From the NCBI GenBank assembly GCA_026986305.1, contig JALSOU010000064.1, positions 1 to 14,329 of the forward strand: a stretch of 14,329 bases of DNA, written 5' to 3'. The notes under the pieces are model-generated. The model ran no database searches. It had not been told where the DNA came from and saw only the letters and a program-made list of their open reading frames with translations. The position numbers were made by a program, and so were the translations under genes. The DNA comes from Thermoplasmata archaeon (GTDB lineage Archaea; Thermoplasmatota; Thermoplasmata; WALJ01). Positions 3,520 through 14,329 of the stretch are shown piece by piece; position 1 is the stretch's first letter; every line of letters starts with the position of its first letter.

Positions 3520-6117
3520 TTATTCTCTCTTTCTGTAGAGAGCAAAGGCGATTCCTGCCATTGACAGGGCTAGGAGCGCAGTTACTGCTTCAAATCCAGG
3601 TACAGTGTCCTTCTTTACTGTCTGAGGCTGTGATGCTGGCTGTCCCTTCACAAGAAGTGTCATCGTAGATGATGGGGCATTTGGATTTGAATCCTTGTAA
3701 CCTGCCTTGTGCGCTACTACTGTAAGGGTGTATGATATATCATCTGTCACCTTGGGGGCTTTGAAGGTTATAACTGCCTGTCCATTTTCATTTGTAGGAC
3801 CAGATACTGTAACATTTGCACCGGTTATTGAAGGCTCCACTCTGACCTCTATGTTCGCGCCTGAAACTGGCTGTCCTCCGGAAGTCACTGTAACAGTTAT
3901 CTGTGTGCTGTTTCCACTACCTATCTCTTCATAGCCCTTTTCTATGCTCACAGAAAGGGAGGGAAGTTCCTCAGGATGCACTGTTACAGATATAGACTTG
4001 CTGGCGTGTACATATCCGGGCTTGTACGCTGATATTGTCAAAGAAACATCTGTAGGCTCATCAACAACAGGTGCTGTGAATGTTATCTTTGCCATTCCAT
4101 TCGCATCTGTGGTGAGTTCTGATGATGAAAGGCCTCCACTGCTTGCGCTCACTACCACTTTTGCTCCTTCAACAGGATTTGCTCCATCTGTAACTGTTAC
4201 TGTTATTGTCATCTTTCCATTTGAGTTCACTGAAGTTGATGATGGAATGACAGTCATATCAAGATTTCCAGAGATGGTGTGATATACATTGAGGAATGTG
4301 AACTTATTGTTCACTCCATTTATCATTGCCTGAAATCCTTCGTATTTCTCACCGTTATAGTACTGAAGGCCTGTGAGATATGCGAGTACGACAACTGCAG
4401 TGTCGTCATAGAGAACACCCTGGGCCTCTTTTACATACTTCTGCAGGTCTTCCACCGTCTTTGCTGTTTTTACCTTCTCCATAACTGAGTCAAAGGCAGG
4501 GTTGGAATAGTGCATGAAGTTGTTGGCATTTCCCGTAACGAAGTTATTCAGATAACTCGGGTCAAGAGGATAGTTGAACTGAGTCATTATCATGTCAAAG
4601 TTGCCGTTATTCATATCAGCACTTATGTTTGCTCCATCCTCCTGGACCCATGTTACATTTATACCGACGCTCTGAAGAACAGTCTCAAGGGTCTGGGCCT
4701 CTGCTGCGAGATAGTTCACCTCTGTGATTCCAACGCTCTTTATGGTTAAGCTTATGGGTGTACCATCAGGAAGATCTACAAATCCATCACCATCTTTATC
4801 GGAAAATCCTCCTTTTGTGAGTATTGACATGGCCATCGACTTATCAAATGGCCTTGCAGGAAGAGAAGTATTGTACCAGAACAGATTGTCCCTTGGAATT
4901 ATGGAATCTCCCTTTATGCCGCTGTTCTGAAGGGTCTTTGAAACGAAGAAGTCCTTGTCCACAGAATAAGATATAGCTTTCCTGAAGTCGGAGTTGTTGA
5001 GTGGGGCGTTTGCACAGTTGAATACCATTTCAACGGTCTTTGTTGTAACGGGCTTAACAATGTTAGCACCCTGAACCTGGGATTTGTAATAAGCATCTAT
5101 GTTTTCAAGTATAACATCTATCCTACCATTGTTAAGGTCATCTACCATTGCCTTATCTGTGCCTGAAATAACGAAAGTGACTGAATCAACATATGGCCTT
5201 CCCATGAAATAATGAGTGTTTGCGTTTATGGTTATTGTGGGTGCTGTGAATGTGAAATCCACGGTCACATAGTCAAATTCGCTCATGTGATGTATTGTTA
5301 TTACTCCATTCTGGCCGTCCAAATCATAATCAGAGGATGAGAGAATGGTCTCATTCTTCCAGTTTGTCCTCTGGAAACTACCATTATACATGACAGGACC
5401 GTAGATATGAATGGTTACAGACTGAACATCGGTATGTGGCAATGTGAAAGTGACATTGTCACCGCCCTTTCTTGTAGCTGGGTTTGTAGGGTCATTGAGA
5501 GTTATATTGGTGTCTGTACCTGTCATTGTTCCATGTTCATATCCCATAAATGGTCCTGTACCAACAGGGGAGTTTGCGCTCCCATCCTTTATTATCGGAA
5601 CCATCAGAGACTTTGTAAAGAATTCACTGTTCGGCTCCTTGAGGACGAACTGAACGGTCATATCATCCACAGCACTTACGCTCTGTATTGGAGAGACATA
5701 ATCGTGATAGATCCCGCTTCCAGCCATATACTGGTTGTATGAATATACCACATCTGCAGATGTCAGAGGAGATCCATCAGTAAATGTAACTCCACTTTTG
5801 AGCTTTACAGTTACAGTAACATTGTCTGATCCAACAGTCCAGCTATCTGCAAGCCAAGGAAGTATTCCCTCAGTGGGCTTATAAACAGCGAGAGAGTCAT
5901 ATAACAGTCCCATTATCCAGCTATCTTCAGTGGCCTGCAGTGGATTTGTGGTTTCTGGGGCCTTATAAACTCCCGCTACAAGATTTCCCCCGAATTCCTT
6001 TGTAGTGGCCGTTCCAGTATAGGTAAATCCGCCCACAACTACCAGAAGCATGCTTGTTGCCACCAGCAATGTGAGGGCAATGCTCTTTACCTGCTTTCTT
6101 TCCTTATTTTGCGTCAT
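3520..6117 (-). CDS. Surface-anchored ABC peptide/solute-binding protein (family 5) with two Ig-like domains and PGF-type tail
   Basis: 865 residues, well above the roughly 500-600 usual for the family. An N-terminal signal or anchor segment (about 1-36) ends near FTYTGTA, with no lipobox cysteine. The family 5 extracellular solute-binding fold follows (about 44-610), recognisable from LPWLADSWT, VTFTDGSPLTSADVVYSY, GTGPF and FRKAISYSVDK. Within lobe I, after GTGPF, there is an extra beta-rich segment at about 198-300. Two invasin-like Ig domains follow (about 620-715 and 722-825), each with the TDxNGxAxITFxAP signature. The end is TVPGFEAV (PGF at 840-842), a hydrophobic helix and RKRE, a PGF-CTERM-like sorting tail. 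I start at the ATG at 6117 because AAGGAGG sits 6 nt before it; the in-frame ATG at 6135 would place that site inside the gene. No permease or ATPase gene is nearby. Peptides are the likely ligand, unproven. Confidence 0.9.
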   Translation of the reverse strand: MTQNKERKQVKSIALTLLVATSMLLVVVGGFTYTGTATTKEFGGNLVAGVYKAPETTNPLQATEDSWIMGLLYDSLAVYKPTEGILPWLADSWTVGSDNVTVTVKLKSGVTFTDGSPLTSADVVYSYNQYMAGSGIYHDYVSPIQSVSAVDDMTVQFVLKEPNSEFFTKSLMVPIIKDGSANSPVGTGPFMGYEHGTMTGTDTNITLNDPTNPATRKGGDNVTFTLPHTDVQSVTIHIYGPVMYNGSFQRTNWKNETILSSSDYDLDGQNGVITIHHMSEFDYVTVDFTFTAPTITINANTHYFMGRPYVDSVTFVISGTDKAMVDDLNNGRIDVILENIDAYYKSQVQGANIVKPVTTKTVEMVFNCANAPLNNSDFRKAISYSVDKDFFVSKTLQNSGIKGDSIIPRDNLFWYNTSLPARPFDKSMAMSILTKGGFSDKDGDGFVDLPDGTPISLTIKSVGITEVNYLAAEAQTLETVLQSVGINVTWVQEDGANISADMNNGNFDMIMTQFNYPLDPSYLNNFVTGNANNFMHYSNPAFDSVMEKVKTAKTVEDLQKYVKEAQGVLYDDTAVVVLAYLTGLQYYNGEKYEGFQAMINGVNNKFTFLNVYHTISGNLDMTVIPSSTSVNSNGKMTITVTVTDGANPVEGAKVVVSASSGGLSSSELTTDANGMAKITFTAPVVDEPTDVSLTISAYKPGYVHASKSISVTVHPEELPSLSVSIEKGYEEIGSGNSTQITVTVTSGGQPVSGANIEVRVEPSITGANVTVSGPTNENGQAVITFKAPKVTDDISYTLTVVAHKAGYKDSNPNAPSSTMTLLVKGQPASQPQTVKKDTVPGFEAVTALLALSMAGIAFALYRKRE

Positions 6118-6123
6118 TTTCTT

Positions 6124-6130
6124 CCTCCTT
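6124..6130 (-). promoter_or_regulatory. Shine-Dalgarno that fixes the start of the peptide-binding protein
   Basis: AAGGAGG on the minus strand, 6 nt before the ATG at 6117, is a near-ideal match to the archaeal 16S tail. It lies inside the reading frame that would begin at the ATG at 6135, which argues against that longer start. Confidence 0.75.
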
Positions 6131-6179
6131 AACATTTATTAACTGATTCATAGCGTGGTTAGAGAGAGGAAGGGAAGTC

Positions 6180-6192
6180 TCATATATATATC
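6180..6192 (-). promoter_or_regulatory. TATA box of the peptide-binding protein gene
   Basis: An alternating AT run (6182-6191) is preceded on the minus strand by AGAAAG, a plausible BRE. A start about 26 nt on, near 6160, would give a leader of about 43 nt containing the AAGGAGG site. The element lies only about 10 bp beyond the stop codon of the purN 3' fragment, as expected if a complete purN once ended directly upstream of this gene. Confidence 0.55.
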
Positions 6193-6200
6193 TTTCTCTA

Positions 6201-6307
6201 TCAGGTAGGATTTTTCAATTTCCCATCTAAAAATAGTTTCACAGCCTCTGGAAGGCACTTATGCTCCTCTTCAAGCACCCTTTGAGCCAGAGTTTCCACG
6301 GTGTCAT
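6201..6307 (-). pseudogene. Detached 3' end of purN (C-terminal fragment)
   Basis: In the purN frame the minus strand reads DTVETLAQRVLEEEHKCLP and onward, identical to intact PurN through AVKL (73 identical bases). It then continues with a different but homologous tail, FLDGKLKNPT-stop, where intact PurN has FLEGRIKI-stop. The fragment has no in-frame ATG and an in-frame TAA lies just upstream, so it is unlikely to be expressed. The tail is undamaged and ends in TGA at 6201-6203. I infer that this is the original end of purN, left behind when the DNA between the two copies was inserted. Confidence 0.8.
6235..6307. repeat. 73-bp perfect direct repeat, copy A
   Basis: Identical base for base to 7327-7399 (offset 1092) and in the same orientation. 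Beyond 6307 similarity to the other copy stops abruptly. Below 6235 it fades gradually (10 of the next 14 bases match), because both tails encode the end of PurN. Confidence 0.97.
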
Positions 6308-6319
6308 ATATTTATTAAT

Positions 6320-6326
6320 AAAAAAA
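6320..6326 (-). terminator. T-tract terminator of the zinc-ribbon gene
   Basis: Seven consecutive T on the minus strand begin 4 nt past the stop codon (6331-6333), inside an entirely AT stretch with no hairpin. This is typical of archaeal intrinsic termination. Confidence 0.55.
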
Positions 6327-6330
6327 TATA

Positions 6331-7227
6331 TTAAGATAGAGTAATCGAACCTTCTCCAGCACCTGAAACCTTGAATATGTATCCACTTTCAACGTCATCA
6401 TTGTTTATTCTTATCTGATCTCCAGTATCTATAAGATCATCTCCGTTAAGGTCGTACCAGACCACGCCGTTTCCATCTGGAGAATTCGCAGTCACGGGGA
6501 ATGTAGAGTTACGAATAAGATATGTACCATCTGGCCTCTGAATAGAATAGGCAAGACTGTAGGGATTAATATCGTGTGCTGAAAGTTGTAAGGTCCAGTT
6601 CGTTTCTCCTATTTTTTGAGCGACAAAAGCTATAGGTTGTGGAGGTGGGGTTTTAGTCGACTCCATACTAGCTACCATTAGCCACAACTCTTCAGGCATT
6701 ATATATGTCTCATTTCCGAAAGTATATTTTTTGAAGGTGTACTCATACGTGAATTCCTTCCCTTTGTACAGAGTAAAATCTCCTTTAACGACCATGTATG
6801 CGTGGGGGTCGCTTTCCGTGCTTTTGCACTGAATAAGGCTCACGTCATAACTAGCGTTATAGTTCACATCAACAGCAAAATCCCGTATCTTCACTTTATC
6901 GCCTTCATGGAAATCCTTCGGCGTGTAGCTTTCAGGACTTCCATCCCCATCATGGTCATACTGCTCCAGAAATTCCTTGTATGTCATCTCTTTTTCCCCA
7001 ACACCGCCTCCGAGCAGCAGGACAGCGGCAATTGCTGAAACAACCACTATGGCTGCCACCACTATTGCTATAATCGCCTTTTTGTTAGAACTCTTTGGAA
7101 GTGGTGCGGGTTGGGGTGTGTATCCATGACCATAGTATGCTTGCTCAGGTGCCTGAAGCATGACCCCACAGCTTGGACATTGGACTGTGCCTTCAGGAAG
7201 TTCTGTTCCACAATTTGGGCATCTCAC
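6331..7227 (-). CDS. Zinc-ribbon, single-span membrane protein of unknown function
   Basis: 298 residues. The N-terminus is a zinc ribbon with CPNC (Cys3, Cys6) and CPSC (Cys17, Cys20). A Pro/Tyr/Gln-rich linker, a membrane helix at about 51-72 and an outside domain of about 220 residues follow. The outside domain contains acidic calcium-type loops: YDHDGDGSPE near 90-99, and YDLNGDDLIDTGDQ near the C-terminus. No catalytic motif is recognised. Proteins with a cytoplasmic zinc ribbon, one helix and an outside domain are common in archaea, and their roles are mostly unknown. The start is GTG at 7227, backed by GGTGA at 7234-7238. This is the only gene in the segment bracketed by purN 3'-end repeats. 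Two spot-checked lines are low in GC (about 33-40%), but the purP lines sampled range from 38 to 52%, so the contrast is only suggestive. Confidence 0.8.
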   Translation of the reverse strand: MRCPNCGTELPEGTVQCPSCGVMLQAPEQAYYGHGYTPQPAPLPKSSNKKAIIAIVVAAIVVVSAIAAVLLLGGGVGEKEMTYKEFLEQYDHDGDGSPESYTPKDFHEGDKVKIRDFAVDVNYNASYDVSLIQCKSTESDPHAYMVVKGDFTLYKGKEFTYEYTFKKYTFGNETYIMPEELWLMVASMESTKTPPPQPIAFVAQKIGETNWTLQLSAHDINPYSLAYSIQRPDGTYLIRNSTFPVTANSPDGNGVVWYDLNGDDLIDTGDQIRINNDDVESGYIFKVSGAGEGSITLS

Positions 7228-7239
7228 GGTAATTCACCG
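7227..7239 (-). promoter_or_regulatory. Ribosome binding site within a small inverted repeat, zinc-ribbon gene
   Basis: The minus strand reads CGGTGAATTACCG and then TG of the GTG start, so the GGTGA Shine-Dalgarno is held in a possible CGGU/ACCG hairpin with a 5-nt loop. The last stem base is the first base of the start codon. A 4-bp stem is weak and may have no effect. Confidence 0.35.
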
Positions 7240-7273
7240 AGACTCCATTGAAAAACATTATTTAAGTCTTTCT

Positions 7274-7284
7274 AAATGTATAAG
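7274..7284 (-). promoter_or_regulatory. Likely TATA box of the zinc-ribbon gene
   Basis: CTTATACATTT on the minus strand would place a start near 7254, a leader of about 27 nt. TTAAATAA at 7258-7265 is a second candidate but would start transcription right at the ribosome binding site. Either way the gene has its own promoter after the end of purN. Confidence 0.4.
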
Positions 7285-7298
7285 TATTCCTACGAACA

Positions 7299-7892
7299 TT
7301 ATATCTTTATTCTCCCTTCAAGAAACAGTTTCACAGCCTCTGGAAGGCACTTATGCTCCTCTTCAAGCACCCTTTGAGCCAGAGTTTCCACGGTGTCATC
7401 GTCTTTTACTGGAACGCATCTCTGAAGTATTATTGGCCCTCCATCTATATCCTCCGTGACAAAATGCACCGTGCATCCTGAGACCTTCATTCCTGATTCA
7501 AGCACAGCTTTATGCACCCTCTCCCCATAGAATCCTTTTCCTCCAAACAAGGGAAGAAGGGCAGGATGGATATTGATTATCTTCCCCCTGTATTTGTTTA
7601 TGAAATATGGAGTGAGGGCTCTCATATACCCTGCAAGGACTATGAGGTCCGGTTTGAATGGCTCTATAGCTTCTATTATTTCCTTCTCATGCTCTTCCCT
7701 GCTCTTTCCCCTGTGGTCTATGTATATGGGCTCTGCACCGTGCTTTCTGGCCCTTTCAAGTGCATATGCATCCTTGTTGTTGGAAACAACTGCGCTCACT
7801 CTTGCATCCCTTATATAACCGGAATCTATCGCATCCAGTATGGATTGGAGGTCAGTGCCTCTTCCCGAGGCGAGAACAACTATTGACTTCAA
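7299..7892 (-). CDS. purN: Phosphoribosylglycinamide formyltransferase (GAR transformylase)
   Basis: Transfers the formyl group of 10-formyl-tetrahydrofolate to GAR, step 3 of purine synthesis, in the cytoplasm. The 197-residue length is normal. It has the phosphate-binding start ASGRGTDLQS (8-17), NIHPALLP with catalytic Asn107 and His109, and VTEDIDGGPIILQ with catalytic Asp150 (by analogy with N106, H108 and D144 of E. coli PurN). The start is TTG at 7892, overlapping the purP stop (TTGA), with AAGGAGATAG just before it inside purP; the two are probably coupled. The last part (bases 7327-7399) is duplicated exactly at 6235-6307. The present tail, EGRIKI, may have been supplied by the inserted segment, replacing DGKLKNPT. 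Confidence 0.95.
   Translation of the reverse strand: MKSIVVLASGRGTDLQSILDAIDSGYIRDARVSAVVSNNKDAYALERARKHGAEPIYIDHRGKSREEHEKEIIEAIEPFKPDLIVLAGYMRALTPYFINKYRGKIINIHPALLPLFGGKGFYGERVHKAVLESGMKVSGCTVHFVTEDIDGGPIILQRCVPVKDDDTVETLAQRVLEEEHKCLPEAVKLFLEGRIKI
7327..7399. repeat. 73-bp perfect direct repeat, copy B (inside purN)
   Basis: Identical to 6235-6307. In this copy the repeat encodes PurN residues from about Asp166 to Leu189 within the intact reading frame. Confidence 0.97.
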
Positions 7893-9171: not shown

Positions 9172-10014
9172 ATGGCAAAGAAAGCCAGAGCAAGAGCCGC
9201 AGCGAGAAAGATGCGTGAAGCGTGGAAAGCCAAGCAATGGTACAGGATAGTGGCACCTGATATGTTCAACGGTGCTGAGCTAGGTGAAACCCCAGCTAGA
9301 GAACCTGATATGCTCATCGGAAGGGTAAGCGAAGTGAGCTATCAGGACCTCACAGGAGACTTTACAAAATCCCACATAAAGCTGTACTTCAAGATAAATG
9401 CGATAAAGGGCATGGATGCTGCCACGGAGTTCATAGGCCACAGCATGACCAGTGATTATCTCAGAAGACTCACCAGAAGGAGAAACAGCAAGATAGAGGA
9501 TGTTGTGGATGTAAGGACCAAAGACGGCTACAAGATAAGGATGAAGACGGTCTCCATATCTCTGGGAAGGATTTCAAGCTCTCATCAACACCTTGTAAGG
9601 ATGAAGATGGAAGAGATAGTAAAGAACAGGGCTGCGGCATCAACCATGGCAGAGCTGATAAAGGCCTCAATAAATGGAGAGCTTCCCAAAGAGATAGCGA
9701 AGGAGTGCAAGAAGATACATCCTCTAAAGAGGGTTGAAGTTAGAAAGTCCGAGATTCTGGAGAAACCGAAGATAACAAGGGAAGAAATCATGGAAGAGAA
9801 GAGCGAAGAGGAATCCATGAAGGAGCTGGAAACCATAGAGGGAGTAGGGCCTGCAAAGGCGAAGATCCTCTATGATGCTGGATATAAGACTGTGGAAGAT
9901 GTTAAAAAGCTCAGCCTTGAAGAGCTTGAAAACATAGAAAAGCTCGGAGAGGCCACAGCTAAGAAGATTTACTCTGCGCTCCATCCCGAAGACTCTGAAA
10001 ATGCCGAGGAATAA
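9172..10014 (+). CDS. rps3ae: Small-subunit ribosomal protein eS1 (S3ae) with C-terminal helix-hairpin-helix extension
   Basis: Structural protein of the archaeal 30S subunit near the mRNA exit. Residues 1 to about 195 match archaeal eS1: a basic N-terminus, WYRIVAPDMFN, GETPAREPDMLIGR, DLTGDFTKSHIKLYFK, GHSMTSDYLRRLTRRR and TKDGYKIR. The usual protein ends at roughly 200-220 residues, whereas this one has 280. An acidic linker (about 200-217) leads into a (HhH)2-type module at about 219-271 with two hairpins, GVGPAKA (224-230) and KLGEATA (257-263), the kind seen in DNA repair and recombination proteins. The coding is continuous with no frameshift. The start ATG has GGAGG 6 nt upstream. The tRNA gene begins 8 nt after the stop. 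Confidence 0.95.
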   Translation: MAKKARARAAARKMREAWKAKQWYRIVAPDMFNGAELGETPAREPDMLIGRVSEVSYQDLTGDFTKSHIKLYFKINAIKGMDAATEFIGHSMTSDYLRRLTRRRNSKIEDVVDVRTKDGYKIRMKTVSISLGRISSSHQHLVRMKMEEIVKNRAAASTMAELIKASINGELPKEIAKECKKIHPLKRVEVRKSEILEKPKITREEIMEEKSEEESMKELETIEGVGPAKAKILYDAGYKTVEDVKKLSLEELENIEKLGEATAKKIYSALHPEDSENAEE

Positions 10015-12879: not shown

Positions 12880-14329
12880 TGACTCACCTCCTCGCCAAGC
12901 TCTATAACCTGAGATTTCTCTATGTTCCAGTCTCCGGGCAGGGGTTCTGCACCCACGACATAGACAGGATTAACATTTTCCACATATAGGTCCACATCCT
13001 CATAATCCCCTCTCTCGCTTCTTAGTTTAAGATGTATCTCAAGCTTTTCTGTTGGATCAAGTGCTATTTCCCACATGATCCCCCTTCCATCAGCCTTGCC
13101 CTCAGGTTCCATGGATATTATGTCGTCCCTCTCTATTTCTGCATATAACCTGAATTTTGCCCTCTTTTCCATGTAATTTATCACCTCAATATCAACATCG
13201 TATTTCTCATCAGCATACCTGCTTCTGGAATCAACCCAGAGTATGCCCATTATCTTTGTTATAGTCCTGTCTATTGGAGGCACAGGCTTTCCTACGATCT
13301 CTGCGGATTTCCTAGCAATCTCTGGAATCAGTTTCTGCACTATCTCAAACTTGCTCCTGACCTTCTTCTTCTTTTCCTGCTTCTTTATATGGAATCTCAG
13401 ATGGCGAGCGCACTCCTTCAGCGCCTTGTCTATCTCATCCAGAATCTCAGGTATGTCCGCTATGGCCTCCTTAGCCTCTGAGGTATATGGAACTCTGGTT
13501 GATGCTATGTGCACGAGTATCACAGCAGGTCCTGTTGGAATCCCTTTACCTCCCTTCTGTTCCAGTCCGTACTGCTTCCAGTTCACCCTCTCAATCGCGT
13601 GGGTGATTGCACATGCCCCTTGCTGATAAAGTAATGGAACGCGGTTTGCGAACCTCAGTATCTCCACAGGCTGGTCCTTTGGAAGATTTCCCCCATACAC
13701 TATTCCGACTTCAACCTGAAAAGGATTCCCTGAATACACAGCAGGTTCACGGGTGACAGGGGGAACATAGTATTCGGGTTTGTACTCATCCATGACATTT
13801 CTAAGGCCTTTCTTTATGAGATGAGCGCCTATTGGTGAGAGGCAATCGGATGGCGGAGCCATTATCTTCACCTTCTTCATGGCCTCAACCAGCCTCTTTG
13901 CCTCATCCACCCCTATATCCTTCGGTCTTTTTTTAGGGTCTATGCCTGCAACTGAGCATATCTCCTCTGCAACCCTTGAACTAACCCTTGAAAATTCCGT
14001 GGAAAGGAAGGAGTTCAGCTGCCTGTTTTTGGAGTGTTTCAGCATTTTCAAAAGGGTTCCCAGCTCCACCCCATATGGATGAGGCTTTATCTCCACAGTC
14101 TTTTTCGGAAGTTTATCGGTGGCCCGCTCAAATATGTACTTCTTTCCGTTTTCTATGTATGTTATGCGGGCGTGAGGGTTAACGATTGCGGTCCTTCTCA
14201 GATACTCATACACCGATTGCTTTCCCCTTATCAGCCTTCCTTTTATGTAAACCTCAATCCTAGTTCCATGCTCAACCTCATCCCAGAGAATGACATCCTC
14301 CTTTATGACTTCGGGTTTGTTATGCTTTG
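12876..14329 (-). CDS. top6B: DNA topoisomerase VI subunit B, C-terminal part (5' end outside window)
   Basis: ATPase subunit whose dimer gate opens and closes around DNA. The frame is open to the window edge: [18 protein letters not shown] leads into [16 protein letters not shown], so the GTG at 14213 is an internal valine codon. Visible parts are the end of the GHKL ATPase domain; the H2TH region around [13 protein letters not shown] and [18 protein letters not shown]; and the transducer domain with [15 protein letters not shown] and [20 protein letters not shown]. The transducer also carries the ATP-sensing lysine in NWKQYGLEQ (codon 13575-13577). After a long charged helix comes a beta-rich Ig-like C-terminal domain from about base 13190 downward, as in the Methanosarcina protein. 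The nucleotide-binding N-terminus lies beyond the window. Confidence 0.96.

Follow-up and report, generated by a model that had tools for sequence, protein, structure and literature searches.

A purN gene end stranded beside an exact 73-nt repeat looks like a one-off recombination scar in an uncultured archaeon

Homology-facilitated illegitimate recombination (HFIR) usually yields an insertion combined with a deletion, with 3–10 bp of microhomology, as described in PMC3240628. For orphaned, displaced 3′ regions, a published model invokes incoming DNA that is anchored at one end (PMC5361080). In Thaumarchaeota, PMC6563490 reports that 14 of 68 elements lie in the 3′ ends of protein genes, as judged by comparison with relatives that either carry or lack the insertion; one of these elements sits in a phosphoribosylamine-glycine ligase gene, and in one case the stop codon of the target gene was replaced. 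Here we analyse an archaeal locus at which the 3′ end of purN occurs twice, on either side of a single gene. The original prediction took this arrangement for an element integrated at the gene end. We find that the locus looks like a one-off recombination scar, a further instance of a type of event already described, and not a proven mobile element.

The window, meaning the whole stretch of DNA that was analysed, is the entire contig C64 (14,329 bases) of draft genome G000, which is 75% complete and consists of 225 contigs. It was compared with four relatives, G001–G003 from the same genus and G004 from the same family. The domain scan of the window covered 15 of 50 listed open reading frames (ORFs), including both antisense ORFs of the unit between the two purN ends. 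The features discussed below are:

3520..6135, minus strand: gene for an ABC-type solute-binding protein, with PF00496 and an Ig-like Big_1 domain in the domain scan
6120..6199, minus strand: conserved stretch upstream of the transporter gene, containing a TATA-like box, aligned in the window and four relatives
6201..6234, minus strand: detached purN end (...LFLDGKLKNPT-stop), in frame and with conservative changes; proposed original purN end
6235..6307, minus strand: detached copy of the 73-nt block, an exact direct repeat
6308..6330, minus strand: AT-rich join from the passenger gene to the detached block, where purN similarity stops abruptly; proposed illegitimate junction
6331..7227, minus strand: passenger gene, encoding an N-terminal zinc ribbon (PF13240), a hydrophobic stretch and a C-terminal domain common with a pilin-like protein
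7299..7326, minus strand: end of the intact purN beyond the block, with 8/22 differences from the detached end; proposed donor tail
7299..7892, minus strand: intact purN, 197 aa, ending in EGRIKI (TIGR00639 PurN, 208.6 bits; PF00551)
7327..7399, minus strand: copy of the 73-nt block within the intact purN, an exact direct repeat

Elsewhere in the window, positions 9172–10014 hold a ribosomal protein S3Ae reading frame with a C-terminal helix-hairpin-helix domain (HHH_5, residues 217–270).

The exact 73-nt direct match that had been noted between 6235–6307 and 7327–7399 is confirmed; with the diverged end included, the repeat reaches 94 nt at 93% identity (6214–6307 and 7306–7399). It is far above chance, as the longest exact repeat was 18 or less in 100 first-order Markov sequences of equal length. 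Towards the inside of purN the match has zero extension and similarity drops abruptly at 6307/6308, in agreement with the earlier description. Towards the gene end the two copies pass from 0/73 differences in the block to 8/22 immediately beyond it (Fisher test, P = 2.6 × 10−6). The ten pairs that can be formed among the window and its four relatives have 7–20 differences in the block and 3–9 in the next 22 positions, and a comparable step, from 0 to 8, occurs in none of them. All four pairs with 8–9 differences in the 22-nt tail have 17–20 of 73 in the block, so an unchanged block followed by eight tail differences fits no ordinary pair. A search of the own genome for further copies of the block or the detached end found only the two purN ends. 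A hairpin or terminator at the 6308..6330 junction was considered and rejected, the predicted fold being no better than that of shuffled sequences (z = −0.90).

As a base rate, 50 loci (442,587 bases, 2,503 of which were not A, C, G or T) contained 17 within-locus repeat pairs of at least 30 nt, six of them at 90% identity or more; exact direct matches of at least 30 nt occurred in seven loci. Both of the latter counts include the window's own repeat. Two other repeat loci were inspected, and neither resembles a stranded gene end. One (L110, positions 611–810 and 2380–2579, from G001) is a 200-nt stretch that recurs at 89% identity in similar genes next to one another and includes exact runs of at least 30 nt; the other (L109, positions 6551–6592 and 13635–13676, also from G001) spans 42 nt at 95% identity and may be a small dispersed repeat. 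A further G001 contig (L108) has identical inverted 136-nt ends (1–136 and 9312–9447), perhaps an assembly hairpin or the end of an element.

Translated in the purN frame, the intact copy ends in AVKLFLEGRIKI and the detached copy in AVKLFLDGKLKNPT, each followed by a stop; the final residues are LFLEGRIKI in the former and LFLDGKLKNPT in the latter, whose stop codon is TGA (6201–6203). The eight nucleotide differences fall within eight codons, yet five of the eight residues are identical and the other three are exchanges of E for D, R for K and I for L. When the same number of substitutions was placed at random, starting from the intact copy and with transitions and transversions weighted equally, this degree of similarity without a stop arose in 0.12% of 200,000 trials (P about 0.001). 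Because the changes are conservative and so rarely produced by random change, the detached copy has the appearance of a PurN terminus that used to be functional. The claim that both copies continue as homologous but diverged PurN ends is thus borne out, in frame and with a conservative pattern.

Which of the two ends is native is harder to say. The intact PurN as a whole shares 83–92% amino acid identity with the four relatives. Over 24 nt, the intact end differs from G001, G002, G003 and G004 at 4, 6, 7 and 9 positions, and the detached end at 7, 9, 6 and 8; the intact end is nearer to G001 and G002 and the detached end to G003 and G004, so the sequences do not tell the native end. The intact end is the closer one to G001 and G002, two of three congeners, which is slight evidence that the detached end is not the native one. 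The PurN terminus is variable and rather short here, judging by the 15 closest database proteins: 14 of them have 201–212 aa, compared with 197 aa in the window, and the remaining one (P0014) has 188.

We screened the flanks of 40 purN loci for a second purN end and found one only in the window's own locus. Ten of these loci came from the first PurN search (11 loci, one of which was partial and left out) and 30 from a wider genome search that matched 57 genomes, the other 27 of which yielded no locus and fall outside the flank screen; the 40 loci include four overlapping pairs, and most of the 30 carry only about 1.5 kb on either side. A more distant genome (G035:C1:1123228-1123808) has a second purN-like stretch beside a full purN, which matches in two overlapping pieces.

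The solute-binding protein is 60–62% identical to those of the four relatives; a database protein, P0126, on a contig of 6,965 bases, shares 74% identity with it. In all five genomes the homology upstream of its gene begins at the TATA-like box; the promoter and TATA box are our reading of this alignment. The stop codon of the detached purN end sits at the edge of this conserved upstream sequence. Past that edge, G002, G003 and G004 have other genes, and G001 is similar to G003. As the detached stop meets the conserved edge, purN probably ended directly before the transporter gene prior to the arrival of the module. The alignment thereby supports, as the probable reading, the earlier proposal that the detached tail marks where purN had ended in front of the next gene's promoter. 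A search for an empty site found none: in all four relatives, the block of genes for eIF5A, an arginase family protein, transglutaminase and the solute-binding protein (or the part of it that is present) and the purP–purN pair are on separate contigs. The gene behind purN differs among these relatives, being a short passenger-related gene in G001 and G003 and other sequence in G002 and G004.

The passenger protein (298 aa) had been described as a zinc-ribbon membrane protein. The zinc ribbon is borne out by PF13240 (26.9 bits; cut-off 25), and one transmembrane stretch is predicted by our reading of the sequence. Its C-terminal 100 aa are related to the purN-adjacent proteins of G001 and G003 (37–38% identity) and to a pair of proteins encoded on contig C199, one carrying a Pilin_N domain. 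Orthology between the passenger and the purN-adjacent genes of G001 and G003 was rejected, as only these 100 aa are common (about 38%). In a tree of eight C-termini, the passenger pairs with the database protein P0122, and the G001 and G003 genes pair together; P0123 and P0124, whose C-termini do not match, are not in this tree. Given the similarity confined to the C-terminus and the pairing in the tree, the shared position behind purN is not proof of vertical descent. The position may nevertheless be old, given that G001 and G003 have a related gene there too. Four of 1,663 candidates in the protein database were hits, the passenger itself at 100% (longest contig, 73,318 bases) and three relatives. 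Within this family (P0121–P0124), the N-terminal zinc-ribbon and membrane part is retained, whereas the C-terminal domain has been swapped: over residues 1–195, P0122 and P0124 share 83% identity, and the C-terminal part of P0122 has no significant match to those of P0123 and P0124 (E = 2.3 or worse), with the full-length alignment of P0122 and P0123 continuing at 61% overall. For the C-terminal domain of P0124 there are further matches in G004, where they are short reading frames of their own. The GC content at third codon positions of the passenger gene (39.1%) is the lowest of 13 genes measured. A foreign base composition was rejected, as the overall GC content (44.3%) is not distinctive and the third-position value is near that of the next gene (41.4%).

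Our tentative preference, held with somewhat less than even confidence, is for a recombination scar: the capture of congener DNA by a homologous crossover near the purN end and an illegitimate join 73 nt upstream. The ancestral purN would have terminated in DGKLKNPT, immediately ahead of the solute-binding-protein promoter. Incoming DNA from a related species would have carried its own purN end (EGRIKI) with a membrane-protein gene behind it. One end of this DNA would have entered by homologous crossover with the resident purN near the end of the gene, and the other would have been joined illegitimately 73 nt upstream of the crossover, perhaps with a sister chromosome as the partner. As a result, 73 nt of resident sequence would be duplicated, purN would gain the donor end and the old end would be left before the next gene. 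Under such a capture the blocks would be identical because both are resident sequence, which is the simpler account of identity that gives way abruptly to divergence. The repeat, the divergence step, the conservative detached end and the boundary at the conserved upstream region of the next gene are observed; the direction of the event, the donor and the mechanism we infer. The divergence step, the protein-like changes in the detached end, its stop at the conserved edge, the different genes behind purN in the relatives, the low third-position GC content of the passenger and the published model of displaced 3′ regions (PMC5361080) count for capture. Against it count the unremarkable overall GC content, the related gene behind purN in G001 and G003, the comparison of both ends with the relatives, which does not single out the native one, the duplication where HFIR usually gives a deletion, and the searches for a donor genome and an empty-site strain, which found none. 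The donor block could also have been identical by chance, as the purN genes of G001 and G003, 90% alike, contain one 74-nt identical run.

The geometry at the purN 3′ end does resemble that of an element, with attL- and attR-like ends, and integration into the 3′ ends of archaeal protein genes is documented (PMC6563490). One rival reading is a minimal or decayed element that targets this site with a replacement end and whose recombinase has been lost or is provided in trans. Four of the five family genomes contain tyrosine recombinase matches, G000 itself having a single partial one close to the beginning of contig C19, so the action of a recombinase encoded at another locus is conceivable. 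As the original prediction had stated, the unit has no recombinase: no such domain turned up in the passenger, in the two antisense ORFs or in the 12 remaining window ORFs of the scan. Searches of viral contigs, phages and plasmids returned nothing similar to the passenger or its module, PADLOC gave no match to the passenger (three proteins tested), no purN ends were found in viral contigs, and the window contains no inverted pairs of at least 20 nt that could be terminal repeats of a transposon or casposon. The suggested recurrence of the module or of replacement tails in other elements was not borne out in these collections. An element bringing its own diverged purN end would also make one block element-derived, and that block should differ; instead, the count is 0/73. 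Finally, an att site of 73 nt with frozen synonymous sites would exceed the generally short att sites, for which PMC6563490 gives an example of 13 bp. With no recombinase in the ORFs scanned, no module kin in the collections searched, no second purN end at the other loci screened and no empty site found, a site-specific integrated element is unsupported, and we consider it unlikely. Even less credible is a one-gene cassette that repeatedly enters the purN 3′ end in this genus and rebuilds the enzyme end with its own codons, moved by a recombinase from another locus; the genes next to purN in G001 and G003 would then be other cargoes of the same site. A literature listing gave no support for purN as a recorded integration site.

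Tandem duplication of the purN end within the lineage needs no donor, and the order of purN and then a gene related to the passenger C-terminus in G001 and G003 is in its favour. Gene conversion would later have had to homogenize the 73 nt and stop precisely at the end of the block, sparing the last codons, and the detached fragment would have been free of protein selection, yet the ends differ mostly by synonymous or conservative changes. Simple tandem duplication, which had been named as the case against integration, is weakened by the step from 0/73 to 8/22, and we give it a low probability. An assembly artefact appears similarly improbable. In a draft of 225 contigs, two strain variants (purN-EGRIKI-module and purN-DGKLKNPT-transporter) could have been joined, a contig end with the common 73 nt being misplaced beside another contig, and both variants would be real even so. 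Merging contigs by overlap would ordinarily leave just one copy of the 73 nt. Moreover, misassembly is less likely because the passenger and the transporter protein each match a database protein at 100%, and for both of these the longest contig measures 73,318 bases, which suggests that one longer contig, presumably from a separate assembly, holds both genes. Single-crossover (Campbell-type) integration of circular DNA carrying a purN end and the module would yield the same order of parts, and entry of circularized linear DNA by a single crossover has been described in E. coli (PMC3240628). The donor and the resident would have to match over 73 nt and then differ at once at 8/22 positions, and we regard this route as quite unlikely.

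If recombinational capture is correct, one-sided recombination has left a scar in this uncultured archaeon that can still be read, and it shows how a housekeeping gene can acquire a different end, and a genome a membrane-protein gene, with no machinery of a mobile element involved. The locus would also offer a simple screen for such events in other genomes: a search for exact repeats that run into an alternative gene end of protein-like sequence.

Among the described systems, the thaumarchaeal elements resemble this locus in that the target gene can gain a new end and stop codon from the element (PMC6563490). They differ in being recognized mobile elements; here there is one gene, with no recombinase, and no empty site was found. 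In the Vibrio T6SS/Rhs loci with displaced immunity genes and orphan 3′ regions, DNA anchored in an upstream gene is proposed to strand the old 3′ region (PMC5361080), as at purN. Those are toxin loci that form an array, whereas here about 100 nt of a housekeeping enzyme gene is left and there is no array. A pneumococcal transformant likewise has a small duplication without flanking repeats that, following DNA uptake, places the resident and donor alleles side by side; that duplication spans 3,276 bp and was obtained under selection, and PMC3784515 calls its mechanism unclear. HFIR shares with our locus one homologous and one illegitimate end and the capture of about 1 kb of foreign DNA (PMC3240628). 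At purN, the homologous end is represented by the PurN-like codons with which each copy continues beyond the block, in one case running on into the passenger; we infer a donor origin for one of these ends. The second junction is non-homologous. HFIR products generally delete a similar length of resident DNA (PMC3240628), whereas no such deletion is seen here: 73 nt of resident sequence is duplicated instead, and the host is an archaeon. Because the usual HFIR product deletes resident DNA, we describe the purN scar as working like HFIR and not as being HFIR.
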